From assembly GCA_013289705.1 (NCBI GenBank), contig JABCZM010000001.1:62001-126000 (forward strand): a stretch of DNA of 64,000 nucleotides, written 5' to 3'. Positions 11,194-50,561 of the stretch are shown piece after piece. Origin of the DNA: Candidatus Saccharimonadota bacterium (GTDB taxonomy: Bacteria > Patescibacteriota > Saccharimonadia > Saccharimonadales > UBA4665). The notes under the pieces were generated by a model that searched no databases, was not told the DNA's origin, and was given only the letters and a program-made list of their open reading frames with translations. The first letter of the stretch is position 1; the number at the start of each line of letters is the position of its first letter. A program made the translations under genes and the position numbers.

Positions 11194-14100
11194 GTGCAAG
11201 ATGACTTACTCACGGGGTTGAATCCTGAACAGCGGCGAGCGGTAGAAACAACCGATGGACCACTGTTAATTCAAGCTGGCGCGGGAAGTGGCAAGACCAA
11301 AACTCTCACACATCGGATTGCCTATTTGATTGCCAATCACAAAGCCACACCGTTCAATATTTTGGCGGTTACATTCACGAACAAGGCCGCCAAAGAAATG
11401 CGTGGCCGCGTGGCTATGTTACTGGGTGAAAGTGCCGACAACCGTGGTTTCATGCCATACATGGGCACGTTCCACGGCATTTGTGTGCGGCTGTTGCGCC
11501 AAGACGGTGAGTCTATCGGCATTCCGCGCAGCTTTGTCATCTTTGACGAGTCGGACCGTCAAACAGCCATCAAACAGGTCAGCAAACAACTGATGATCGA
11601 TGAAAAAGCTTTTCCGGCACGCATGCTCGGCAGCTTAATAAGCAGTGCCAAGAACGACATGATTTCGCCCGAAGAATACAGTAGTAGTGCCAACACGCCA
11701 GCTCAAAAGGCGGCTGCCCAGGTATTTCCAGGCTATCAGCGAGCCTTGCGCGAAGCATCGGCGCTCGATTTTGATGACCTAATAAACCGCACGGTTAGCA
11801 TGATGGAAGCGCAGCCAGAGGTTCGTAAAAAGTGGCAAGCCCAGTTCAAGTACATCATGATCGATGAGTACCAGGACACCAACGCTGCCCAGTATAAATT
11901 AGTTAACTTGTTAACTAATGCCGACAAAAACATAGCGGTCGTGGGCGATGACTGGCAATGTCTTGTTCCGGGAAGTCTTGTCGAAACGGTCAATGGCCTC
12001 AAAAAGATTGAAGACGTTGCCAAAGGAGATTTGGTACGGTCGGCAAGTGGTTACGGCAAAACAGGCTTTTTTAAGGTCTTGAATCGAAAAAAATTTCAAT
12101 CCAAAGGCGAAGTAATTGAAATTGAGCTAGCTTCAGGTAAAAAGCTTACGTCAACAGCCAACCATATTCTTTTTGCGCGCTGGGGTAAAACAGATGCATA
12201 TTTTGTGTACTTGATGCATTCGCAGGCCAAGGGATATCGAATCGGTACGGTAAAGGGTACGAGGTTTGATGGTAAAAAAGACGACATTGGCCTAAGGGTA
12301 CGCGCAAACCAAGAGAGAGCAGACAGGATGTGGATAATAAAGGTTTGCCAGAACCGTCAAGAAGCTATGTATAACGAAGCGCTTTTTGCGTATAAATACG
12401 GTATCCCTATGCTGGTTTTTCATGCTTTCGCCAGTCGTTTTATGCAGTTTAAGCAAGAATACATAGATGCTATCTACGAAGAAATTGATACTGCTGCAAG
12501 AGCAAAAACCTTAATGGCCGATCTAGGCCTGGCCTTTGATTACCCCCATTTCTCGCCACAGGGAACAACTCGGAATGGTATCAAAAGGGTTAACGTGAAT
12601 ATCGTACTGTTTGGAGACAAACGAACTTCAGACCAAAGCTCCTGGTCGGCAAGTAGAATTTCCGCAAATACTACGCACCTTGAAGATTTGCATGTTTTTG
12701 AGAAACTGGGATACACGGTACGGACTGGCCGCGCCAGTACGTATAGAAGTGAGATTCATAATCTTGATTATGGTCATATTGAAGAAGTTATGGAGAAAAT
12801 AAAAGAAGAAAATAACGGTGAAATGCGTATTAACAAATACGCATTTATGACCGATAAAAAGTTTTCTTTTATGCCGGCAGGACATATTCATCCGGGTATG
12901 TTGCTTCCCTGTGTTGATGGCGACCGTATTATTGAGGACCAGGTAGTTGGTGTTACGAAAAGAGACTACGCCGGTCCAGTGTATGATCTAGATGTTGAAA
13001 AGGTGCACAATTACATTGCATCGGGCATAGCGGTACATAACTCAATCTATAGTTGGCGTGGTGCCGATTTTCGGAACATTCTAAACTTCGAAAAAGATTA
13101 CAAAGATGCCACCATCATCAAGCTCGAACAAAATTATCGCAGCACCAAAAACATCCTTGATGCAGCCCACGCCATTATTACCAAAAACCAGCAGCGATCG
13201 GACAAGCAGCTGTGGACCGATGCTGGCGACGGCATGCCTGTGCAAATGATTCAGGTCATGAGCGAACGCAGCGAGGGCGAAGCAATCGTCCGCCGAATTC
13301 AGAATGCTGTCGACAGCGGCAGCCGTAACTTCCGTGATTACGCCGTGCTATATCGCACCAACGCCCAAAGCCGATCCATCGAAGAAGCCTTTGTGCATTA
13401 TGGCATTCCATACAGAGTGGTTGGTGGCGTACGCTTTTATGATCGTAAGGAAATTAAAGACATTATTGCGTACCTGCGCGTAATTTTCCAGCCAGAAGAT
13501 CGCATTAGTTTTGAGCGGATTGTGAATGTGCCAACCCGCGGCATTGGTGCCAAATCGGTCCAAAATTTCTTTGGTTGGCAACGTGCCGAAGGCTTGTCGA
13601 TGCTTGATGCCATAACAGAGGTGGAACGCTGCGACAGCCTGACCCCCAAAGCTCGCAAAAGTTTGGGAGAATTGGGCGATATTCTGGCCAGTGTGCGCCG
13701 ACTGATTGATGAAACTTCGGTATCGGGTTTGATCGACTCACTGCTACGCCGAATCGACTACCTGCACTTCCTGGATGACGGTAGCCTGCAAGGCGAAACA
13801 CGGGTCGAAAACGCCAAGGAACTCCTAAGCGTAGCCCAAGAATATGAAAACTTGGGGCTAGAGGGCTTCCTGGAAGAAGTAAGCCTGGTGAGCGATTTGG
13901 ACAGTGCCGACTTTGATGGCAATGCGGTGACACTCATGACCTTGCACGCTGCAAAGGGCCTGGAATTTCCAGCGGTGTTCATGGCTGGATTGGAAGAAAC
14001 GATCTTCCCGCATAGTCGTGCGTTGTACGACCAATCGGAAATGGAAGAAGAACGCCGCCTGTGTTACGTGGGTATGACGCGTGCCCGTGAAGAACTGTAT

Positions 14101-14442
14101 CTGATTTATGCCACCAGCCGTATGTTGTACGGCGGCATGCAACACAATCCACCGTCGCGCTTTTTGAGCGAAATTGATGCCGAATTCCAGACTGCCGAAT
14201 CGTTTGCACCCACCGGTTTTGGGTTTGGCAATCAGCAGACCTCGTCCGACGAATTTGCACAGGATGATTTTAATCAAGAGCCACGGTATATACCCGAACT
14301 GGGCGAGGGCGACAGTGTGCGCCACCAAACCTTTGGCACGGGTACGGTAGTAGATGTTGATGGTGACACTGTAACCGTTTACTTCCGTGGCAAGGGTGCT
14401 CGCAAGTTAAATGTTGCCTTTGCACCCTTAGAAAAGTTGTAG
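11194..14442 (+). CDS. uvrD: UvrD/PcrA/Rep-type helicase interrupted by an intein (1082 aa precursor)
   Basis: A superfamily 1A 3'-5' DNA helicase for nucleotide-excision and mismatch repair or replication restart. Extein motifs: Q-motif and Walker A (LNPEQRRAV…QAGAGSGKTKTLT), Walker B MIDEYQDTN, motif III split by the intein (VVGDDWQ | SIYSWRGAD), QNYRSTKNIL, TLHAAKGLEFPAVF, and YVGMTRAREEL. The C-terminus has the SH3/tudor-like GDSVRHQTFGTGTV…LNVAFAPLEKL of PcrA. Without the 361-residue intein the mature helicase would be 721 residues, a normal UvrD length. Start GTG 11194, leaderless by promoter position. The next gene follows after 8 nt. Confidence 0.95.
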   Translation: MQDDLLTGLNPEQRRAVETTDGPLLIQAGAGSGKTKTLTHRIAYLIANHKATPFNILAVTFTNKAAKEMRGRVAMLLGESADNRGFMPYMGTFHGICVRLLRQDGESIGIPRSFVIFDESDRQTAIKQVSKQLMIDEKAFPARMLGSLISSAKNDMISPEEYSSSANTPAQKAAAQVFPGYQRALREASALDFDDLINRTVSMMEAQPEVRKKWQAQFKYIMIDEYQDTNAAQYKLVNLLTNADKNIAVVGDDWQCLVPGSLVETVNGLKKIEDVAKGDLVRSASGYGKTGFFKVLNRKKFQSKGEVIEIELASGKKLTSTANHILFARWGKTDAYFVYLMHSQAKGYRIGTVKGTRFDGKKDDIGLRVRANQERADRMWIIKVCQNRQEAMYNEALFAYKYGIPMLVFHAFASRFMQFKQEYIDAIYEEIDTAARAKTLMADLGLAFDYPHFSPQGTTRNGIKRVNVNIVLFGDKRTSDQSSWSASRISANTTHLEDLHVFEKLGYTVRTGRASTYRSEIHNLDYGHIEEVMEKIKEENNGEMRINKYAFMTDKKFSFMPAGHIHPGMLLPCVDGDRIIEDQVVGVTKRDYAGPVYDLDVEKVHNYIASGIAVHNSIYSWRGADFRNILNFEKDYKDATIIKLEQNYRSTKNILDAAHAIITKNQQRSDKQLWTDAGDGMPVQMIQVMSERSEGEAIVRRIQNAVDSGSRNFRDYAVLYRTNAQSRSIEEAFVHYGIPYRVVGGVRFYDRKEIKDIIAYLRVIFQPEDRISFERIVNVPTRGIGAKSVQNFFGWQRAEGLSMLDAITEVERCDSLTPKARKSLGELGDILASVRRLIDETSVSGLIDSLLRRIDYLHFLDDGSLQGETRVENAKELLSVAQEYENLGLEGFLEEVSLVSDLDSADFDGNAVTLMTLHAAKGLEFPAVFMAGLEETIFPHSRALYDQSEMEEERRLCYVGMTRAREELYLIYATSRMLYGGMQHNPPSRFLSEIDAEFQTAESFAPTGFGFGNQQTSSDEFAQDDFNQEPRYIPELGEGDSVRHQTFGTGTVVDVDGDTVTVYFRGKGARKLNVAFAPLEKL
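11959..13041 (+). mobile_element. Intein in the helicase, with a GIY-YIG-like central region (361 aa)
   Basis: Begins at Cys256 directly after GDDWQ and ends with His-Asn (615-616) before extein Ser617, giving the standard Cys…HN|Ser chemistry. Block A is CLVPGSLVETVNG. Block B contains T321-A-N-H324. Block F/G reads GPVYDLDVEKVHNYIASG then IAVHN. Between them there is no LAGLIDADG or HNH motif. The segment 335-405 (YFVYLM…GYRIG…RVRANQ…EAMYNE…KYGIP) resembles a GIY-YIG nuclease: two aromatic-Gly boxes, a following Arg and a Glu. The region is visibly more AT-rich than the extein. It is inserted in the conserved motif III, a common intein site. Confidence 0.9.
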
Positions 14443-14987: not shown

Positions 14988-16256
14988 ATGCATGCACGAC
15001 TTATAAAACTTCATCGCCGCGTTCGTCGGCAGCAACAAGCGCACGCTATGCGTTTTCGGCGGTTTCGAGCACATCCGGTTATGGTGCCGATCGTTACCTT
15101 TGCAGTATTGTTGCTAGTTAGTCTTGGTGGTTGGTGGTTGCTTGCTCGCGATGACACGCCAGTGACTGATGCCTACGTGGTTATCATCACCCACGATCAT
15201 GCCGAACAAACCGTACCGAGCCGCGAACCGACCGTCGGTGCACTGCTCAAGAAACTCAACCTTACCCTCAACGAAGGTGATGTGGTGGAGCCAAGTGCTC
15301 AAACGAAAATCAAACAGGATGATTTTCGCATTAACATCTATCGGGCAGTACCAATAGAAATTATTGACGGTACACAGCATACCTTCACCTTTAGTGCTGC
15401 TACTACCTCGCGTAGCATTGCGCGTCAGGCAGGTATAGCAACCTATGCTGAGGATAATTTGACGATCAAGCCGGTCGACAATTTTGTGAGTCAGGAGGCC
15501 ATTGGTGAACAGGTAGTGATTGATCGCGCTACCCCTATAAATATCAATTTATATGGCACGCCAACGGTAGTGCGTACTCATGCCAAAACAGTAGCCGATC
15601 TAATGAAAGAAAAAGGTATCAAGCTCGCAAAAGACGATCAGGTTACCCCAGCGTTATCGACTCCGCTGGTTGATAATCAGCAACTATTTGTGACGCGTAA
15701 CGGCACTAAAATCGAAAGTGTTACCGAATCAATTCCCGCCCCAACCCAGGCAATCGACGACCCAACGCTAGCTTTTGGTACCAGTGCCATTCGTCAGCAG
15801 GGTTCAGACGGGCAGCAGATTACAACGTATCAAGATGCGCTACAAAACGGCGTCGTGGTTTCCCGAACACTTATCCAAACCGTTGTAACGCAACAACCAG
15901 TGACACAAATTGCCGTACGTGGCACCAGTCTGAGCGGCATCCGGGGTGATATGGCGTTAGCTGGCGTTAGCCCTGATGATTACGAGGCCGCCGACTACAT
16001 CATTAGTCACGAATCTGGCTGGTGTACCACGAAAGCCCAGGGCGAACATGACTGCCCGGTGGTGCCGGATAACCAATTTACTTCTGGTGGCTATGGGCTT
16101 TGCCAGGCAACGCCCGGCAACAAGATGTCGAGTGCCGGGGCCGATTGGGCTACAAATCCTATTACGCAGATTCGGTGGTGTAGCGGCTATGCAGCGGGAC
16201 GATACGGTGGCTGGAGCGGGGCTTACAATCATTGGCTCAACTACCACAATTGGTAA
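14988..16256 (+). CDS. Rpf/YabE-like cell-wall protein: DUF348 repeats, G5 domain, lysozyme-like C-terminus (422 aa)
   Basis: A membrane-anchored or secreted peptidoglycan-acting protein. A basic N-terminus is followed by one TM (about 32-52, VTFAVLLLVSLGGWWLL). Two to three DUF348 ubiquitin-like repeats follow (VVIITHDHAEQTVPSREPTVGALL…, INIYRAVPIEI, ININLYGTPTVVRTHAKTVADLM), then a G5 domain (~245-312, PAPTQAIDDPTLAFG…VVVSRTLIQTVV). The transglycosylase-like domain (~330-422) has an early Glu in SHESGWC and GYGLCQATPG, the fold shared by Rpf and SLT enzymes; its four cysteines may form disulfides. DUF348-G5-Rpf architecture is known from actinobacterial RpfB. Confidence 0.88.
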   Translation: MHARLIKLHRRVRRQQQAHAMRFRRFRAHPVMVPIVTFAVLLLVSLGGWWLLARDDTPVTDAYVVIITHDHAEQTVPSREPTVGALLKKLNLTLNEGDVVEPSAQTKIKQDDFRINIYRAVPIEIIDGTQHTFTFSAATTSRSIARQAGIATYAEDNLTIKPVDNFVSQEAIGEQVVIDRATPININLYGTPTVVRTHAKTVADLMKEKGIKLAKDDQVTPALSTPLVDNQQLFVTRNGTKIESVTESIPAPTQAIDDPTLAFGTSAIRQQGSDGQQITTYQDALQNGVVVSRTLIQTVVTQQPVTQIAVRGTSLSGIRGDMALAGVSPDDYEAADYIISHESGWCTTKAQGEHDCPVVPDNQFTSGGYGLCQATPGNKMSSAGADWATNPITQIRWCSGYAAGRYGGWSGAYNHWLNYHNW

Positions 16257-30353: not shown

Positions 30354-31616
30354 ATGAGTTTGAAAAGCCTTGTGACGAAACTGTCCTTCCGGATGGACAA
30401 AGATCTAAAGCCCGAGGACGTCCAGCCTGCACGCGACTACATCAAGGCGTACTGGAAAAATCTAGAGCGCTTTCACCCCAAAGACGACGAAAGTCTGCTT
30501 GGTTTACCAAAACCGTATCTGGTGCCGTCGTACGCCGAAGTCACTGGTTTTGACTATAACGAGATGTATTATTGGGACAGCTATTTTATGGCTCAGGGCT
30601 TGTTGGACGATGAGCACAAGGAGCTCATAGAGGGCATTCTGGAAGACTTAATAAGTCTGTTTAAACGCTTCAACGTGATTCCCAATGCTTCACGGACCTA
30701 TCTGACAGGCAGGTCACAGCCGCCGTTTCTCACTACCTTTATCTTTGACGTCTACCAGGCTTATGACCCGGGCGAAAAGTGGTTGCAAGAAGCCATAGAA
30801 GTTGCCAAAAAAGAATACGCCACCGTCTGGATGGGCCACAAAAAACCTAACGAACGTCTGGTGTACAAAGGTCTGAGTCGTTACTATGACATCAATTATC
30901 TGCACGATTTGGCTGAAGCCGAAAGTGGGTGGGATATGACGTCACGCTTTGGCCGTCGGGCTCTAAACTTCCTGCCGGTAGACTTAAACGCGCTGTTGTA
31001 CAAGTACGAAACCGACTTTGCCCGTGCGGCTCGCATTGCCAACGATGTCCGCGAAGCTGCCAAATGGGATCAGGCTGCCCAGGCTCGAAAAAAATCCATG
31101 GACGGCTTGATGTGGGACCGTTTGCGCGGTCTCTACTACGATTACAATTACGAAAAAGGTAAGCGTGGCATCATCAGTTCGCTCGCAACCTTTTACCCAA
31201 TGTGGGCTGGCATGGTCGACAAAGACCAAGCCGAATCAATCGTCCGTGGCTTGCGCCGGTTCGAAAACAAGGGTGGCTTGGCAACAACAGACGCACCGCT
31301 ACCGGTTGGTAAGTTTGTGCCTGGATCGGTTCCAACGCAGTGGGCCTACCCCAACGGCTGGGCGCCACTGCATTTCATTGTCATCAAGGCACTGGAACGC
31401 TATGGCTACCACCAAGACGCCCGCCGCATTGCCATGAAGTGGCTCAAGACCAACCTCCATTGGTTTAATGAACACAACGTCTTTCTGGAAAAATATAATG
31501 TCGCTTCGCCCGAAAAACCACCAGTCAAAGGTGTGTACCCATCACAAACTGGCTTCGGCTGGACCAATGCCATCTTTGAACGTCTCTGCCAAGACTATAT
31601 TGATAGGCCATTGTAG
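30354..31616 (+). CDS. Trehalase-like glycoside hydrolase (420 aa)
   Basis: An (α/α)6-barrel enzyme resembling GH37 trehalases. Family-type motifs: EVTGFDYNEMYYWDSYFMAQGL (the trehalase signature has YYWDSY), SRTYLTGRSQPPFL, E-S-G-W-D-MTSRF (catalytic Asp region), and QWAYPNGWAPLHF (QWD.PNGWAP in trehalases), with Glu residues in NVFLEKYN near the end. It would split trehalose into two glucose in the cytoplasm (no signal peptide), feeding glycolysis. Shorter than typical ~550-residue bacterial trehalases, so another disaccharide substrate is possible. Confidence 0.83.
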   Translation: MSLKSLVTKLSFRMDKDLKPEDVQPARDYIKAYWKNLERFHPKDDESLLGLPKPYLVPSYAEVTGFDYNEMYYWDSYFMAQGLLDDEHKELIEGILEDLISLFKRFNVIPNASRTYLTGRSQPPFLTTFIFDVYQAYDPGEKWLQEAIEVAKKEYATVWMGHKKPNERLVYKGLSRYYDINYLHDLAEAESGWDMTSRFGRRALNFLPVDLNALLYKYETDFARAARIANDVREAAKWDQAAQARKKSMDGLMWDRLRGLYYDYNYEKGKRGIISSLATFYPMWAGMVDKDQAESIVRGLRRFENKGGLATTDAPLPVGKFVPGSVPTQWAYPNGWAPLHFIVIKALERYGYHQDARRIAMKWLKTNLHWFNEHNVFLEKYNVASPEKPPVKGVYPSQTGFGWTNAIFERLCQDYIDRPL

Positions 31617-43448: not shown

Positions 43449-43784
43449 ATGAGTGACGAGGCGAAGCCGGCAGAGGGTGTGGCAGGCACTGGCGCAATCG
43501 GACAGGCTAATGCCAAGTCTGACAAGAGCGAGTCAGACGCTACGACAATGCAGGTTAAGGTCCATTCGCCGTTCAAGGTGTATTACGAAGGCGTGGCTAG
43601 CAGTATTAGTGCCGAAAGTGCCACTGGACCATTCGATATTTTGCCTGAGCATCACAACTTTATTACGTTGTTAGTGCCCTGTGATTTGGTTATTCGGAAT
43701 GGTAAGAATGAGGAGGTGGTTGCTATATCAGGCGGGATCATGCACGTAAAAGCCGACGATGTAATCGTCTTTCTGGACGTCTAG
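43449..43784 (+). CDS. atpC: F1-type ATPase epsilon subunit, short form (111 aa)
   Basis: A ~30-residue polar N-terminal extension, then the epsilon β-sandwich: MQVKVHSPFKVYYEGVASSI, GPFDILPEHHNFITLL, and VAISGGIMHVKADDVIVFL. The usual C-terminal two-helix inhibitory domain is absent, so the regulation by epsilon seen in E. coli cannot operate. Last gene of the ATPase cluster, 106 nt after beta. Confidence 0.85.
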   Translation: MSDEAKPAEGVAGTGAIGQANAKSDKSESDATTMQVKVHSPFKVYYEGVASSISAESATGPFDILPEHHNFITLLVPCDLVIRNGKNEEVVAISGGIMHVKADDVIVFLDV

Positions 43785-43954: not shown

Positions 43955-44950
43955 CTAGTCGAGCACTATGTAGTCGTAGCCAAAGGCTTGGCCGGCGGGG
44001 GGTGAGGTGGCCGTGCAGACGGTAAAGCCGGTAGTGGTGCGGGTGACGTAGTAGGCGATGCCAGCGGCGGCGGCTTCGACTGGGGTGACCACGACGTGTG
44101 GGGTAGTGTTGAATTTAGTAGTAAAGGTTACGGTTACAAAACAGCCTGCAACGGGGCTTCCACCAGTGTTAATGGTGATTGAGCCGGCGGTATCGGAACC
44201 ACTAACTGATGTGGTGCCACCACCGCCAAGCGCGCTGCCGTTAGTGCGGGCTGGTGTTGCGCCGCCGGCACTGATGTGGTGTGTTAGGAGTAGGTCACCG
44301 TTGAGTTGCAGGGTATTCACGCTCAATTGTGGTGCCGAGAGCACGCCACTGAACGTGCCGCTGCCATTAACAGTAATGCCTTTTTGAATCGACAGTTGGC
44401 CCTGCAGTGCAGTATCACCGGCAACGGTTAAGTTTTTGTTAATCTGCGCCGTGTCAAAGATGCTACTGCCCGATACGGTAACGCCGGTTAATGACAGATC
44501 ACCTCCAACTTGTAGCTTGCCAGCAACTTCAAGATCTTTGCGGATTAATACTTGGCCGGCAAACACGGCGTTACTTTGGACGTTCAAGGTTTGTTTGACG
44601 TCACCAACCGTGACGTCACTACTGGCCAGTTGGCTGACGCTGCTTTGGGGCAGGGTTTGGCTAGAAATCTGGCCTGTTGGCTTGGTGTGGCCGCGCAGAT
44701 ACGAAATAGCAACCACTATAACGGCGATAACCACCACAAAGACAAACAGCAATAAGTAGATGCTAAAGTGTCGAAACAAGGCCTTGACGCCACCTTTTTT
44801 TGGCTTTTTTGTTTCGGGGCTAGTAATGGCAACCTCGGCTTTTACCGCCTGCTCGTCGCTACCTTCAAGTGATGCACCCTCTTGTGCATCTGTATCTGCC
44901 TGGCTAAGAGCCTCTGTTGGCTTGTCGCCGCTAGGATTTTCGTCTGCCAT
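43955..44950 (-). CDS. Membrane protein with bactofilin-like β-helix repeats (331 aa)
   Basis: A cytoplasmic acidic N-terminus (~1-55), one TM (~67-90, FSIYLLLFVFVVVIAVIVVAI), then an outside region. It starts with a Ser/Gln linker and continues with six-residue-periodic repeats (VFAGQVLIRKDLEVAGKLQV, GDLSLTGVTVSG, NLTVAGDTALQGQLSI…) typical of right-handed β-helices such as bactofilins. The C-terminal domain (~255-331, GCFVTVTFTTKFNTTPHVVVTPVEAAA) contains two Cys. Start set at the second ATG (44950); surface location is inferred. Confidence 0.75.
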   Translation of the reverse strand: MADENPSGDKPTEALSQADTDAQEGASLEGSDEQAVKAEVAITSPETKKPKKGGVKALFRHFSIYLLLFVFVVVIAVIVVAISYLRGHTKPTGQISSQTLPQSSVSQLASSDVTVGDVKQTLNVQSNAVFAGQVLIRKDLEVAGKLQVGGDLSLTGVTVSGSSIFDTAQINKNLTVAGDTALQGQLSIQKGITVNGSGTFSGVLSAPQLSVNTLQLNGDLLLTHHISAGGATPARTNGSALGGGGTTSVSGSDTAGSITINTGGSPVAGCFVTVTFTTKFNTTPHVVVTPVEAAAAGIAYYVTRTTTGFTVCTATSPPAGQAFGYDYIVLD

Positions 44951-45058
44951 CTCTATCCCCACTACGTAACTATCACTACTCTTATGCTAATAATACCATG
45001 GCCGCTACCGTAAGCGCATTGCCTTTCGGCGTAAAATTTAGGACAATAGGTAGTAGCT

Positions 45059-45817
45059 ATGAGTTTTTGGAAGAAGATCGCGAGCTCGCTGGCGCTCTGC
45101 CTGCTGGTCATATGTAACGGCTCAACCGTGGCGACCGCCTTGCAATCGTCATCGGCCACCTATGGTATAGATCAAGCCCAGTTTGGAAATGGCGGCGAGC
45201 TTGATGCTTGTTCGACGACTTACTGTAGTAAACAAACTGCGGGTGAAACGGCGGTTGGCAATTCGGCCAGTAGTAGTTATCAGACTCAGGCTGGTGGCTT
45301 GGTAACCGATCGTCAAGAGTCGCTGCAGCTTATTGTGAATGGAACCAACACCGATATCGGCACGCTAACTACTACGAGCACAGCTACTACAACCGCGACA
45401 TTTTCAGTCAAATCCTACCTTGCGAGCGGCTATGCCGTGTATACGTCGTCGCCTGGCCCACAGAACAACGGCTACACAATGCATGGCATGACCACAGCCG
45501 CAGCTTCAAGCCAAGGGACCGAGCAGTTTGGCATAAATCTAGTCAACAACACGCTTGGTGGAACTTGTAATGCTCCAGCAAACTTTGGTCACGCCGCCAC
45601 ACAAATTCCCGACGGCAGCTTTAGTTATGGTCAGGCTGCACCCGGTTATGACACCTGCGGGCTGTTTAAATACAAGGATGGTGATGCCATTGCGCAGTCC
45701 GCCACTAGTTCTGGCGAAACCGACTATACCATCTCCTACATGTTCAACATCTCCGCACTTACGCCAGGTGGTGACTACAAGCTGCAGCAATCAATTGTTG
45801 CCACTTCCACGTTTTAG
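45059..45817 (+). CDS. Secreted surface protein 1 with ATSTF C-terminus (252 aa)
   Basis: Signal peptide (FWKKIASSLALCLLVICNGSTVATA). The body is Ser/Thr/Gly-rich and β-predicted with two Cys pairs (CSTTYC; C…C near 170-200). It ends …YMFNISALTPGGDYKL followed by an IVATSTF terminus. The N-I-S…Y……(V/I)A(T/S)xxF ending recurs in the two genes that follow, so these form a family. No catalytic motif; probably assembled on the cell surface. Confidence 0.8.
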   Translation: MSFWKKIASSLALCLLVICNGSTVATALQSSSATYGIDQAQFGNGGELDACSTTYCSKQTAGETAVGNSASSSYQTQAGGLVTDRQESLQLIVNGTNTDIGTLTTTSTATTTATFSVKSYLASGYAVYTSSPGPQNNGYTMHGMTTAAASSQGTEQFGINLVNNTLGGTCNAPANFGHAATQIPDGSFSYGQAAPGYDTCGLFKYKDGDAIAQSATSSGETDYTISYMFNISALTPGGDYKLQQSIVATSTF

Positions 45818-46039
45818 TAATTATTCATTTTTTACTGGATGCGTGGGACTCGTTACAGTGGCTAAGTTGTGTAAAAATCAACAATTTGTTACGTCATTAA
45901 CTTTCTATGACAAGAGTATTGCAGGGTAAGCTCTAGCATGTTACCATGCTACTGTATAACTCTTTAAAGTCGCAAAATAAAGAGGAAAGAGACGGACTAA
46001 TGAGGCGGGGTGAGGCGAAAAATAAGAGGTGAGACGGAC
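45818..46039. other. Intergenic region with a perfect palindrome before surface protein 2
   Basis: TAGCATG-TTAC-CATGCTA (45934-45951) is a perfect 7-bp inverted repeat immediately before a TATAAC -10-like box (45955-45960). The following ~80 nt leader is purine-rich. A repressor site or an mRNA hairpin are both possible. Confidence 0.4.
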
Positions 46040-47392
46040 GTGAGTAATGAAATAAAAAGTCTAACTAAGCGAGCTACCGCGGCTTTTGGCGCGTTAGGCT
46101 TGGGAGCGGCCTTGACGGTCGCTGCACTGCTCGCACCTCATGCGCCAATGGCCGTGGCACTGACTGCAAGTGGTGGTCAAGTTCAAACACGTGCTATTTA
46201 CATGAGCACTTCCAGACCAGGAGCCACTGCTCAAAGCTATCTAGTCAGTTTTAAGCCCGCCACTACGGGTACACTCGAAGGTATTGTTGTTGATTTTTGT
46301 AGTAACGACCCAATCGCCGGTGATACCTGTACTGCCCCTAATGGCTTTAGTGTCGGTACGCCAACTGTTAACTTTGGTGCGACTAGCGCAGGCAATCCAA
46401 CCACCACGGGTACCACTGCTTTGCCTGGTACATGGACTCCATCCGCAGCACATACAAACCGTACGTTGAAGCTCGACAATGCAACTGGTTCATCTCTAAC
46501 GGCTGGCACACTTTACGGCTTTACTATTACAACCGTTACAAACCCGGACGCTACGAACACGAGCCCTTCATTTTACGCACGCGTCCTAACCTATGCTACC
46601 GACGGAACTGATTTCACGAATTATGACGGTGGTACCGAAGGGACGGTGGTAGATTACGGCGGCTTTGCCCTCTCTACCGCGGCCACTATTAACATTAACG
46701 TAAAGGTCCAAGAAACACTTTTATTCTGTGTTGTAACCGATACGACCGACCCTGGCACTGCTGGACACACCTGCTCTGATTCTGTCTATGTGACTGGTCA
46801 CACTCCTGATCTGACAATTGGACATGGTACGAACGTGAAAATTATTGATAACTCACAAATTGATACGGCTACCGCGTTCATGCAAGTATCAACCAATGCT
46901 ACAAGTGGCGCGGTTATTCGTATGCACGCTGCTAACGCCTGCGCTAATGGCGGCTTAAGTAGTGACAGTGGCACGACCTGTGCAATCTCTGGCCTTGATA
47001 ACACAACTGCTGGAAGACTAGTTACGGCTACGCCCAATACGGGCAATGCAGAGTTTGGCCTCTACGTTGGTAATGGGTATGCCACAACAGGGGTCGCAAC
47101 GAGTACCACGAACATTACCGCTGACCCTAATTACCACAACGCGAGCAATGTGACTGAGCCGTCAACTATAGGCGGACCATTGACCAACGTGAATGACTTG
47201 TGGTTTGGTCTCGATAACACAACAAACTCTGGTGGTGTTACGGGTACGTATGGTGACACGATTGCTACCACTGGTGGTGCGCCATGTAACACAACAAATG
47301 CTCACTTGGTCTTTGGTGCCATCGCTAGTCTAACTACACCAGCGGGTATCTATCAGGGTGTCGAGTCACTGATTGCAACCGGTACATTCTAA
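46040..47392 (+). CDS. Secreted surface protein 2 with ATGTF C-terminus (450 aa)
   Basis: Start set at GTG 46040 (AGAGGTGAGA 9 nt upstream) rather than a longer frame at 46010. Signal peptide AFGALGLGAALTVAALLAPHAPMAVA; several Cys pairs (FCSND…DTC, LLFCVVTD…TCSDSV). An N-terminal half rich in T/S/G, β-predicted. It ends LTTPAGIYQGVESLIATGTF. Same overall layout as the next gene (SY/STSR…VDFCSNDP… versus IELQLCSDSPL…), so they are paralogs. Confidence 0.85.
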   Translation: MSNEIKSLTKRATAAFGALGLGAALTVAALLAPHAPMAVALTASGGQVQTRAIYMSTSRPGATAQSYLVSFKPATTGTLEGIVVDFCSNDPIAGDTCTAPNGFSVGTPTVNFGATSAGNPTTTGTTALPGTWTPSAAHTNRTLKLDNATGSSLTAGTLYGFTITTVTNPDATNTSPSFYARVLTYATDGTDFTNYDGGTEGTVVDYGGFALSTAATININVKVQETLLFCVVTDTTDPGTAGHTCSDSVYVTGHTPDLTIGHGTNVKIIDNSQIDTATAFMQVSTNATSGAVIRMHAANACANGGLSSDSGTTCAISGLDNTTAGRLVTATPNTGNAEFGLYVGNGYATTGVATSTTNITADPNYHNASNVTEPSTIGGPLTNVNDLWFGLDNTTNSGGVTGTYGDTIATTGGAPCNTTNAHLVFGAIASLTTPAGIYQGVESLIATGTF

Positions 47393-47407
47393 GAAGGATA
47401 CCCATGA

Positions 47408-48472
47408 ATGTCCTACTCAGTAGCTACAGCTCGTAAACTCATTTCGCCACAAACAATTTGTCTTGTGCTTGTGGCCGCACTCATGGTGGTAGGGTTGTTG
47501 CGTAGTACACAAGCTTACGGTGCCCAGTTGCCGGTACGAAGCATTTCGCTTTCTAGGGCCTTACCGGGTGTTAATGACACCTATGCCATTGCCTTTACTT
47601 TGCCACATGCCGAAACATTAGGCTCAATCGAGCTGCAGCTCTGTTCTGACAGCCCGTTGGTGGGTAATCCATGCACGGCTCCGGTGGGCTCTAATCTATC
47701 CACGGCAACGCTTGGCAGCCAAGTGGGTGCCACTGGCTTCACTGTTCTAAGTGCGACGGCCAATACGCTGGTGCTAGGCCGATCGGCGAGTACTGCATCG
47801 GCCGGAGTAGTTAGTTACACGTTGAACGGCGTGGCTAATCCGTCATCTGCAGGTGCTTATTTTGGCCGCTTGCAAACGTTCCCAACAGCTAACGCAACCG
47901 GAACGGCAAGTGACTACGGCGGTCTGGCGTTTGCCATTAATGCGTCGTTGCACGTCAGTGTAGTGGTGCCGCCATACTTATACTTCTGCGTCGGCATTAC
48001 GGTTACTGGTACCGACTGCACAACGGCAACCGGAAATTATATTAACCTTGGCGATTTTAGCACGGCGATTACGAGCGTGGCACAGACACAAATGGTTGCT
48101 GGCACGAACGCAGATACGGGCTATGACATTGTAGCTAGCGGCACCACGCTGACTTCGGGTAATGATATTATTCCGGCTCTTGCCACGCCGGATGTGTCGC
48201 GTCCGGGTACAAGCCAATTCGGTATGAATCTGGTTGCCAATCAAGATCCACAAGTCGGTCAAAGTCCAGCTGGCCAAGGAGCGGGTGTTCCCGCGGCTGG
48301 CTACAATTTGCCAAATTCCTACAAATTTGTACCTGGTGACACTGTTGTCTCGGTGCCTGTTCCGGATTATCCACGTAATTACACGACTAGCTACATCGCC
48401 AATATCTCCAAGAGCCAAGCCTCCGGTGTCTATGTGAGCACGCTGACATACGTTGCGTCCGGAGCTTTCTAG
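47408..48472 (+). CDS. Secreted surface protein 3 with ASGAF C-terminus (354 aa)
   Basis: Paralog of protein 2: signal segment ICLVLVAALMVVGLLRSTQAYGA, then ISLSRALPG…AYAIAFTLP-type strand, LQLCSDSPLVGNPCTAPVG (parallel to VDFCSNDPIAGDTCTAPNG), YFGRLQTFP…ASDYGGLAFAINASLHVSVVV, YLYFCVG, and the ending TSYIANISKSQASGVYVSTL, then TYVASGAF. 15 nt after protein 2. AGAAGGAT is the Shine-Dalgarno. Probably co-transcribed with proteins 2 and the following DUF916-like gene. Confidence 0.85.
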   Translation: MSYSVATARKLISPQTICLVLVAALMVVGLLRSTQAYGAQLPVRSISLSRALPGVNDTYAIAFTLPHAETLGSIELQLCSDSPLVGNPCTAPVGSNLSTATLGSQVGATGFTVLSATANTLVLGRSASTASAGVVSYTLNGVANPSSAGAYFGRLQTFPTANATGTASDYGGLAFAINASLHVSVVVPPYLYFCVGITVTGTDCTTATGNYINLGDFSTAITSVAQTQMVAGTNADTGYDIVASGTTLTSGNDIIPALATPDVSRPGTSQFGMNLVANQDPQVGQSPAGQGAGVPAAGYNLPNSYKFVPGDTVVSVPVPDYPRNYTTSYIANISKSQASGVYVSTLTYVASGAF

Positions 48473-48559
48473 GGTCTCGATTGTTGTCTAATCTTCCTGT
48501 GGTTTGGAAAACATTTAGCGGTTTGCTACTATAAGTAATAATAAGAGGGAAAACAAAAC

Positions 48560-49558
48560 ATGATTCGACGTCTGAGCGTCTTTAAGCCTATAGGTGTGTT
48601 GGTTGCGGCCATTGCCTTGCTCAGTACGTCACTAATAAGTCCCGCATTTGCTGCTACCTCATCCAGCACGGGGGCCGGCAATGGGATGAAAGTCTCGCCA
48701 GTCCACACCGAGCTGAGCCTGAAGCCAGGGCAAAGCACGACTGTCGATGTATACATAACGAACGTAACAAGTCAGGCCGCAACTTTTCAGGCAATCATCA
48801 ATGATTTTGTGGCTAGCGGTGACGAAACAGGTAACCCGGCTATTATTTTGAATCCAGATCAGTCAGCACCCAGTCATGGCCTTAAAAAATACATTAAACC
48901 AATTAGTAATGTGACATTGCAGCCGGGCGAGCAAGCCGATGTCAAAGCAATTATTACCTTGCCAGCCGATGTTGCGCCAGGTGGTTACTATGGTGCAATT
49001 CGTTTTGCTCCAGCTTCTGGCGGTGCGGCTACCAACATTTCGTTATCGGCAAGTGTCGCGTCGCTGATATTGGTGCGTGTTGCCGGTGAGGTAAAAGAGC
49101 AGGTGTCAATTGCCAGCTTTGATGCCCGGAGTGATGATAAGTCGCGCAGTATTTTTACGAGCAACAAAAATATTGATGGTACGATTCGCTTCCAAAACAA
49201 TGGGAATGTCCAAGAGCAGCCTTTTGGTAAAATCATACTCAAAAAGGGCAGCAAGATTATTAGCAGCAGTGAAGTCAATAACACCGATCCACGTGGTAAC
49301 GTGTTGCCAGATAGTATTCGCAAGTTTTCGGTACCGTTAAGTGGTATCGGATCGTTTGGAAAGTACAGGCTAGAAGGTAACTTTGGCTACGGATCTGACG
49401 GGCAATTGCTCACGGCAACAGCTACATTTTATGTGATTCCTATTCCGGTTATTGTCACGGTGCTGGTATCGGTGGCGCTCATTATCGCCTTAGTCTTTGA
49501 AGTGCCACGCATGATTAAGCGCTACAACCGTCGCATTCTCCGCCAAGCTGGCCGCTAA
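48560..49558 (+). CDS. DUF916/WxL-like membrane-anchored surface protein (332 aa)
   Basis: Signal peptide (VLVAAIALLSTSLISPAFAA), then an Ig-like N-terminal domain with GMKVSPVHTELSLKPGQSTTVDVYITN and …TLQPGEQADVKAIITLPADVAPGGYYGAIRF. This is the pattern of DUF916/WxL-interacting proteins in Gram-positive surface operons. A second β domain follows, and a C-terminal TM (~297-318, VIPIPVIVTVLVSVALIIALVF) with a basic cytoplasmic tail. GAGGG upstream of the ATG. It probably anchors or binds the three secreted proteins encoded before it. Confidence 0.82.
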   Translation: MIRRLSVFKPIGVLVAAIALLSTSLISPAFAATSSSTGAGNGMKVSPVHTELSLKPGQSTTVDVYITNVTSQAATFQAIINDFVASGDETGNPAIILNPDQSAPSHGLKKYIKPISNVTLQPGEQADVKAIITLPADVAPGGYYGAIRFAPASGGAATNISLSASVASLILVRVAGEVKEQVSIASFDARSDDKSRSIFTSNKNIDGTIRFQNNGNVQEQPFGKIILKKGSKIISSSEVNNTDPRGNVLPDSIRKFSVPLSGIGSFGKYRLEGNFGYGSDGQLLTATATFYVIPIPVIVTVLVSVALIIALVFEVPRMIKRYNRRILRQAGR

Positions 49559-49610
49559 GATCTAGGGGCCCTACATTGTTGGAGGCTGGAAAGTCCTGTA
49601 AAGTGTAAGC

Positions 49611-50561
49611 ATGAGCATAATGCGTATCATCGGGCCCACTATTGGCCGACGGCTAGCGTACACGGGATTGTTGCTCGCAACGTTGGTTGCTCTTGGCACG
49701 TTTGTGTCCGGTACGGTATCGGCTGTCGGTTCAGCGCAGAATCCGCAAGATGGCTCGATTGGACTCGAAGGCACCATTAAAGCGCCACCACCTACGCAGG
49801 GCGGTACCATTGGCACGCCCGGCAACGGCCAAACTGTTACCAACGGCGTTATTACGGTTAGCGGTTTGTGTAAGACTGGCTTGCTGGTAAAGATTTTTGA
49901 TAACAATATTTTTGTTGGTTCGGTAATGTGTGTCAACAGCAGTTACTCGTTGCAGGTAAGTTTATTTAGTGGCCGAAACGATCTGGTTGCGCGGGTCTAT
50001 GATGCGCTCGACCAAGCAGGGCCGGATTCTAACCTCATTACCGTCACGTTCAACGATGCCCAGTTTGCTCAATTTGGCACGCGCGTCGCCTTAACCAGCA
50101 CCTTTGCCAAACTTGGTGCCGACCCTGGCAAAGAACTCGACTGGCCAATTACGCTCACCGGCGGTGTGGGCCCGTATGCCATCAGCATCGACTGGGGTGA
50201 CGGCACACCACCAGTACTGCTGAGCGAGGCGTATCCGGGCGATATCACTATCAAGCATGTCTATAACAGTGCCGGTGTCTACAATATCGTGGTCAAGGCG
50301 ACCGATGCTAACGGCACCATCGCCTTTCTTCAGTTGGTGGGTGTTGCCAACGGCAAGGTAAGTCAGGGAGCCAACGGCACCAGTACGGCTAATTCATCGA
50401 GCGGTAGCACAAACACCGGCACCAGCACTCCCAAAACCAGTGTGTTATGGTGGCCAGCACTGATACTTTTGCCGCTCATTATAATTTCGTTCTGGCTTGG
50501 TCGCCGTCATGAATTAACTACACTTCGTCGCCGCCTAGAACAAAATCGCGACTTCTCCTAA
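49611..50561 (+). CDS. Surface protein with PKD-like domain and C-terminal TM (316 aa)
   Basis: Signal segment (~17-38), a Gly/Pro/Gln-rich linker, a β domain (VTVSGLCKTGLLVKIFDNNIFVGSVMC), then a PKD-like domain (~170-250: GGVGPYAISIDWGDGTP…VKHVY…GVYNIVVKATDANG, with the W-G-D-G-T motif). A Ser/Thr linker and C-terminal TM (LWWPALILLPLIIISFWLG) before a basic tail follow. The -10 box TAAAGT lies 6 nt before the ATG, leaderless. Final gene of the surface cluster. Confidence 0.82.
   Translation: MSIMRIIGPTIGRRLAYTGLLLATLVALGTFVSGTVSAVGSAQNPQDGSIGLEGTIKAPPPTQGGTIGTPGNGQTVTNGVITVSGLCKTGLLVKIFDNNIFVGSVMCVNSSYSLQVSLFSGRNDLVARVYDALDQAGPDSNLITVTFNDAQFAQFGTRVALTSTFAKLGADPGKELDWPITLTGGVGPYAISIDWGDGTPPVLLSEAYPGDITIKHVYNSAGVYNIVVKATDANGTIAFLQLVGVANGKVSQGANGTSTANSSSGSTNTGTSTPKTSVLWWPALILLPLIIISFWLGRRHELTTLRRRLEQNRDFS

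Follow-up and report, generated by a model that had tools for sequence, protein, structure and literature searches.

The locus considered here occupies positions 45059-50561 of a 64,000-nucleotide stretch (the window; assembly GCA_013289705.1, contig JABCZM010000001.1, positions 62,001 to 126,000) from a Candidatus Saccharimonadota bacterium, and its closest described counterparts are the chaperone-usher pili, the WxL clusters of Gram-positive bacteria, the TasA/TapA fibres of Bacillus and the Pam pilus families of NCBIfam. In pilus chaperones, the strand lent to the subunit sits in the hairpin that closes domain 1. In WxL clusters, genes for DUF916-DUF3324 proteins (WxLIP), which bear the N-terminal motif NQIDKxxxYFDLK, adjoin those of secreted partners; DUF916 is the domain of WxLIP that binds peptidoglycan, and DUF3324 the one that binds the host. 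According to passages of PMC10599100, the sandwich of the WxL domain is predicted to be completed by a strand of the WxLIP hairpin that is disordered when WxLIP is free, and WxLIP-WxL is regarded as a complex at the cell surface. Passages of PMC10151520 on TasA/TapA describe helper-assisted strand complementation without an outer membrane, which resembles what we propose below, whereas the donor there is the N-terminus of TapA or the N-terminal strand of TasA, and a DUF916 protein is not mentioned in these passages. The Pam pilus itself is defined by the NCBIfam 2026 models NF058578 (PamR), NF058579 (PamT) and NF058581 (Pam pilin C domain), whose names denote a pilus of the candidate phyla radiation (CPR) type. 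We found no paper that names it in the literature covered, from which subscription papers and preprints were largely absent. These models and those of Pfam were applied with their curated cut-offs; NF058580, tried as an additional Pam model, was rejected because it is a lipase model.

Judged by these families, the genes at 45059-50561 form a Pam pilus locus in a Saccharimonadia episymbiont, that is, a member of the kind already named in NCBIfam, with predicted genes for PamT, two more pilin-domain proteins, a membrane protein of the DUF916/WxLIP type and PamR. Its five same-strand open reading frames (ORFs) encode 252, 460, 354, 332 and 316 amino acids and, together with one divergent ORF, lie between ATP synthase genes (ending at 43784) and mnmA (50584), the gene of a tRNA-modifying enzyme. 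The source genome comprises 1.24 Mb and is 97.4% complete. PamT, P3 and PamR exceed their curated cut-offs, whereas P2 remains under it and none of the Pam models matched protein 4 or U0. The features are as follows.

43955 to 44962, minus strand: U0, a divergent membrane protein and probable extra component (weak Bactofilin similarity, conserved upstream position)
45059 to 45817, plus strand: protein 1, PamT, a predicted pilin-type subunit with a C-terminal Pam pilin domain (NF058579, NF058581; tail with G at -14, Y at -12, F at 0)
46010 to 47392, plus strand: protein 2 (P2), a divergent protein with a putative pilin domain (weak NF058581 match, full tail signature)
47408 to 48472, plus strand: protein 3 (P3), a predicted two-domain pilin-type subunit with its C-domain at about residues 182-354 (NF058581)
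48560 to 49558, plus strand: protein 4, of the WxLIP/DUF916 type, with two immunoglobulin-like (Ig-like) domains and a C-terminal membrane helix, the proposed surface chaperone or anchor (PF06030, fold)
49031 to 49057, plus strand: codons of the proposed donor strand (protein 4, residues 158-166), part of the hairpin that closes domain 1 (conservation, model confidence)
49611 to 50561, plus strand: protein 5, PamR, an RbmA-like/PKD membrane protein (NF058578)

An initial annotation, made from the bare sequence, had described this stretch as a WxL-like cluster of secreted proteins sharing a C-terminal motif. As an observation it holds as a whole: the five ORFs, the secreted nature of proteins 1-3 and their common C-terminal module all reappear in our analysis, and a DUF916 protein bearing a membrane helix at its C-terminus, followed by a second membrane protein, was rightly recognised. 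Proteins 1-3 begin with segments that, judged by eye, resemble signal peptides, and they end in ...YKLQQSIVATSTF, ...YQGVESLIATGTF and ...YVSTLTYVASGAF, respectively. The likeness of these tails is positional, with G at -14, Y at -12 and F or Y as the last residue (0) without any insertion or deletion, and all three fit the pattern G-x-Y-x(11)-[F/Y]-COOH.

This signature was followed through 80 PamR loci kept from 128, mostly labelled Saccharibacteria or Saccharimonadia (most of the others are called just 'bacterium', and one Chlamydiae), after partial ORFs had been dropped. The initial annotation had proposed in advance that the motif be sought in orthologues, and there it proved to be kept: 214 of the 220 complete ORFs of the PamT, P2 and P3 types bear it in full (50/53 PamT-like, 36/37 P2-like and 128/130 P3-like), against 0/852 other complete ORFs tested at these loci (P4, PamR, U0, mnmA, alaS, atpD and unlabelled ones; 42 atpC ORFs stood outside the test). 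Because the 220 ORFs had been collected with full-length profiles, the test was repeated on more distant loci with a profile lacking its last 15 columns. The proteins found in this way carry the signature in 16 of 18 cases, or 14 of 16 when two of them, both positive, that belong to a Saccharimonadia genome (L049) are set aside. Moreover, 15 of the 137 ORFs missed by the tail-less profile still bear the signature (at least two genes are counted twice among them), and these look like further members of the family.

It should also be mentioned that, at these distant loci (L049-L053), the signature also closes proteins of 1599 and 2681 amino acids, and each of their genes has a DUF916-like gene of its own behind it (for example L051:10172-18217 and L050:1-4800). 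Their architecture suggests giant adhesins that share the attachment or assembly module.

Two of the three subunit candidates are firmly recognised by the curated models. PamT scores 276.7 bits with NF058579 (cut-off 240) and 134.2 bits with NF058581 (cut-off 55), and P3 reaches 153.4 bits with the latter model. Proteins 1-3 are the only pilin-domain genes of the genome at E<=0.01, and relatives of the locus have one or more P2-type copies at the position of P2. No Pfam family matched proteins 1-3 at E<=1, no dedicated prepilin test being part of this search. In P3, four cysteines are invariant across 67 homologues, and the AlphaFold2 model consists of two beta domains (predicted local distance difference test, pLDDT, 93.2; predicted template modelling score, pTM, 0.54). 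The C-domain (model residues 187-354) aligns with the pilin domain of CfaE (200-357), up to the C-terminal part of CfaE, at a Z of about 7, and it also matches a cryo-electron microscopy entry titled TLP-1a (Z 8.0). The N-domain aligns with YcnI (Z 10.3), BslA and Gram-positive pilin domains. TasA is not among the fold matches listed for P3, which counts neither for nor against a likeness. A search of solved structures with the P3 sequence returned nothing useful (antibody light chains, E 0.09-0.67).

The proposed partner of these subunits is protein 4. The initial call of a DUF916-like domain survives a search with PF06030 (34.4 bits; cut-off 27.3), a family that 65 of 67 homologues also match at E<=1. 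The model of protein 4 (pLDDT 90.3, pTM 0.79) finds as its top match in the PDB a WxLIP bound to a long WxL protein (9i25_C; Z 16.0, root-mean-square deviation 6.7, 232 residues). The WxLIP of Enterococcus, free and WxL-bound, falls at Z 15.6-16.0, and the next matches are the chaperones CfaA, CsuC, YadV, Caf1M and FimC of chaperone-usher systems (Z 10-12). By sequence, solved structures yielded a weak WxLIP line alone (E 0.54). Within the hairpin, residues 158-166 alternate between hydrophobic and polar: positions 160, 162, 164 and 166 are hydrophobic in 100, 100, 87 and 75% of the 67 homologues, respectively. Mean entropy over this segment is 1.36 bits versus 1.98 for residues 40-295, and model confidence drops in the hairpin, where the mean pLDDT is 65 over residues 151-160 and 76 over 161-170. 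A strand that is conserved yet poorly ordered in the lone model is what a donor strand should look like.

Thus far, the likeness to chaperone-usher pili (Fim, Caf1, Csu, CFA/I) comprises the chaperone-like fold of protein 4, the place of its donor-like strand, a Gly/aromatic C-terminal signature on the subunits and the alignment of the CfaE pilin domain with the C-domain of P3. There are also differences. The outer-membrane usher PF00577 is missing from the genome of the window, while an E. coli control was positive; no outer membrane is expected; the putative chaperone is membrane-anchored; and Pfam searches of the locus proteins and P3 homologues gave no match to PapD-type chaperone or fimbrial families. 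The tails also stand in another register, given that all five Fim subunits of E. coli K-12 have G at -13 and a penultimate Y (-1). Since the usher is lacking and the tail register differs, we do not regard the locus as a chaperone-usher pilus.

The last gene of the operon encodes PamR, which scores 400.2 bits with NF058578 (cut-off 300). It had initially been called a PKD-domain membrane protein; the PKD match (22.1 bits) falls slightly under the Pfam cut-off of 23.5. A DUF916-type gene lies directly upstream of PamR in 74 of the 76 loci that reach that far, a pilin-type gene lies within three ORFs of it in 73/73 loci, and some genomes have a second pair (P2/P3-type plus DUF916) downstream. 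Among the 50 loci that extend more than 7 kb upstream, a U0 homologue precedes the PamR operon in 50, and ATP synthase genes are found there in 42. The neighbourhood of the ATPase cluster, noticed in the initial annotation, is therefore conserved synteny in Saccharimonadia. U0 itself shows, by eye, a cytoplasmic N-terminus and a transmembrane segment, followed by a region with similarity to Bactofilin (20.2 bits, under the cut-off of 27.9); it is possibly a tip, base or receptor component. PADLOC gave no anti-phage defence match for the six proteins.

PamR was detected in 107/244 genomes of the class at E<=0.001, 73 of them above the cut-off. As three unrelated control genomes match PamR under the cut-off, 107 is to be taken as an upper figure. 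In the phylum, the Pam pilin domain occurs in 73/286 genomes (16 above the cut-off) and the DUF916-like protein in 129/286, with 69 genomes holding both. The pairing with DUF916 to which the initial annotation had pointed is thus visible at the genome level: the DUF916-like protein accompanies the pilin domain in 69/73 genomes versus 60/213 without this domain, in a test that ignores the relatedness of genomes and counts each as independent. Adjacency was counted with one best pilin match per genome, in the 68 of 73 genomes with a listed match. A listed DUF916-like gene lies within 1 kb of it in 41/68, within 4 kb in 54/68 and within 7 kb in 57/68 genomes; in 9/68, no DUF916-like gene is among the matches listed on the same contig. 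In TM7i (CP075337), a cultured strain, all four pilin-domain matches fall in the stretch that holds its PamR gene.

Bacteria of the Saccharibacteria group are not known to have an outer membrane, so an usher would not be needed. The fixed tail of the subunits, the paired chaperone-like gene and the lack of an usher together point to strand complementation without an usher, taking place on the outer side of the one membrane. We therefore favour, with some reserve, a Pam pilus assembled in this manner with the help of protein 4 and probably serving in host attachment. In such a scenario, subunits whose C-domain is an incomplete beta-sandwich would be secreted by Sec. Protein 4, held by its C-terminal helix and facing outwards, would recognise the free C-terminus (G-x-Y...F) and lend strand 158-166, completing the C-domain of the subunit. 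Non-covalent polymerisation might follow as the lent strand is exchanged for a strand of the next subunit, or else subunits might stay on protein 4 as a base. PamR and U0 would help to fix the fibre or to bind the host cell, and the likely role of the whole would be attachment to a host bacterium. Polymerisation, subunit order and host binding go beyond the strand step and are likewise inferred. No sortase is present among the ORFs of the Pam locus.

Several points weigh against this scenario. Strand donation is deduced from the models of two monomers, and the pTM of P3 leaves the arrangement of its domains open. The fold matches of P3 at Z of about 7-8 are at the level of common beta-sandwich arrangements and are suggestive only. 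P2 scores 20.8 bits with NF058581 (24.5 bits in the genome search), under the cut-off of 55, and the tail register differs from that of Fim as described above. The 60 of 213 pilin-less genomes with a DUF916-like protein imply either other partners for it or that the pilin model misses some subunits. The genome encodes five sortases (on contigs C1, C4, C5, C6 and C9 of G000; L135-L139), which mean that covalent anchoring exists in the cell. Finally, the records consulted hold no observation of a Pam filament.

Among the alternatives, the one that fares best is a static surface complex instead of a fibre, in which the pilin-type C-domain would be a sorting or attachment module held by protein 4, and proteins 1-3 and their giant relatives would be displayed as separate adhesins. 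The proteins of 1599 and 2681 amino acids, each with a DUF916-like gene of its own, suit display more than a shaft, and the view of WxLIP-WxL as a surface complex in passages of PMC10599100 would fit as well. Against it stand the several small pilin-domain proteins per operon and the pilus names chosen by the NCBIfam curators. As this explanation shares the strand-donation step with the Pam pilus proposed above, sequence separates the two poorly; we consider the static complex unlikely, although a serious competitor.

It is much harder to defend a true WxL cluster, in which divergent WxL domains would tie proteins 1-3 to peptidoglycan and protein 4 would be their WxLIP. The score of protein 4 above the PF06030 cut-off and its fold nearest to WxLIP speak for such a cluster; its two Ig-like domains with a C-terminal helix and the adjoining genes of secreted partners are further shared features. 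However, the WxL domain PF13731 was found in 0/147 genomes of the class, that of the window included (a Lactococcus control was positive), it is not among the 15 families to which at least one of 67 P3 homologues had a match, and proteins 1-3 contain no WxL tripeptide. Protein 4, in turn, lacks the NQIDKxxxYFDLK motif expected near the DUF916 start in its translation, and PF11797 (DUF3324) is absent among its Pfam matches, though the WxLIP fold alignment covers both domains (model residues 40-294). With the WxL domain in none of the 147 genomes searched, the locus is not a WxL cluster, and we give this explanation very little credence. What remains of the initial label is the logic of a non-covalent assembly like that of WxL operons, while membership in the WxL family has to be given up; the Pam locus may well work by the same strand device.

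An S-layer or envelope lattice made of proteins 1-3, also raised in the initial annotation, is the least credible of all, because secreted beta-sandwich proteins with a membrane anchor protein lend it nothing specific, a locus present in fewer than half of the class genomes by the PamR counts given above would be odd for a universal coat, and the curated models name a pilus.

It is tempting to extend these comparisons. Patescibacteria might carry a widespread usher-less system of strand complementation, formed by a membrane-anchored WxLIP-type chaperone or base and subunits with the G-x-Y-x(11)-[F/Y] signature, such that WxL complexes, chaperone-usher pili and Pam pili would all be versions of a common device. 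Part of the host attachment of episymbionts that is now ascribed to type IV pili would then depend on this system. We put this forward as a conjecture, with the chances leaning against it. The mechanism, if true, would connect WxLIP with pilus chaperones by way of the donated strand.

How ultrasmall episymbionts grip their hosts is an open question. In passages of PMC10633639, PMC12206443 and PMC11665869, this ability is attributed to type IV pili, to a type IV secretion system and to various adhesins. For TM7x, three filaments are predicted from the genome (PMC12206443, in part), of which two are type IV pili and the third is a type IV secretion system, and section 11 of the transposon sequencing paper on S. 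epibionticum (PMC10633639) gives the same list of type IV pili, type IV secretion system and various adhesins; the Pam pilus is not mentioned in the passages of these two papers. A second kind of filament with a surface chaperone of its own, present in fewer than half of the class genomes and in TM7i, would be a concrete candidate for host attachment. Since TM7x is not represented among the 80 loci retained from 128, and PamR is missing from over half of the class, we do not claim that the unassigned 'thick pilus' of TM7x, as it appears in passages of PMC12206443, is a Pam pilus.

Elsewhere in the window, a UvrD/PcrA helicase gene (11194-14442) is interrupted by an intein, with an Intein_splicing match of 47.4 bits and a Hint match between the helicase halves. 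A protein with G5 and DUF348 domains is encoded at 14988-16256; we take its architecture to resemble that of resuscitation-promoting factors. At 30354-31616, there is a protein of the trehalase family, whose best stretch (residues 184-411) matches the C-terminal part of the model alone (282-507).

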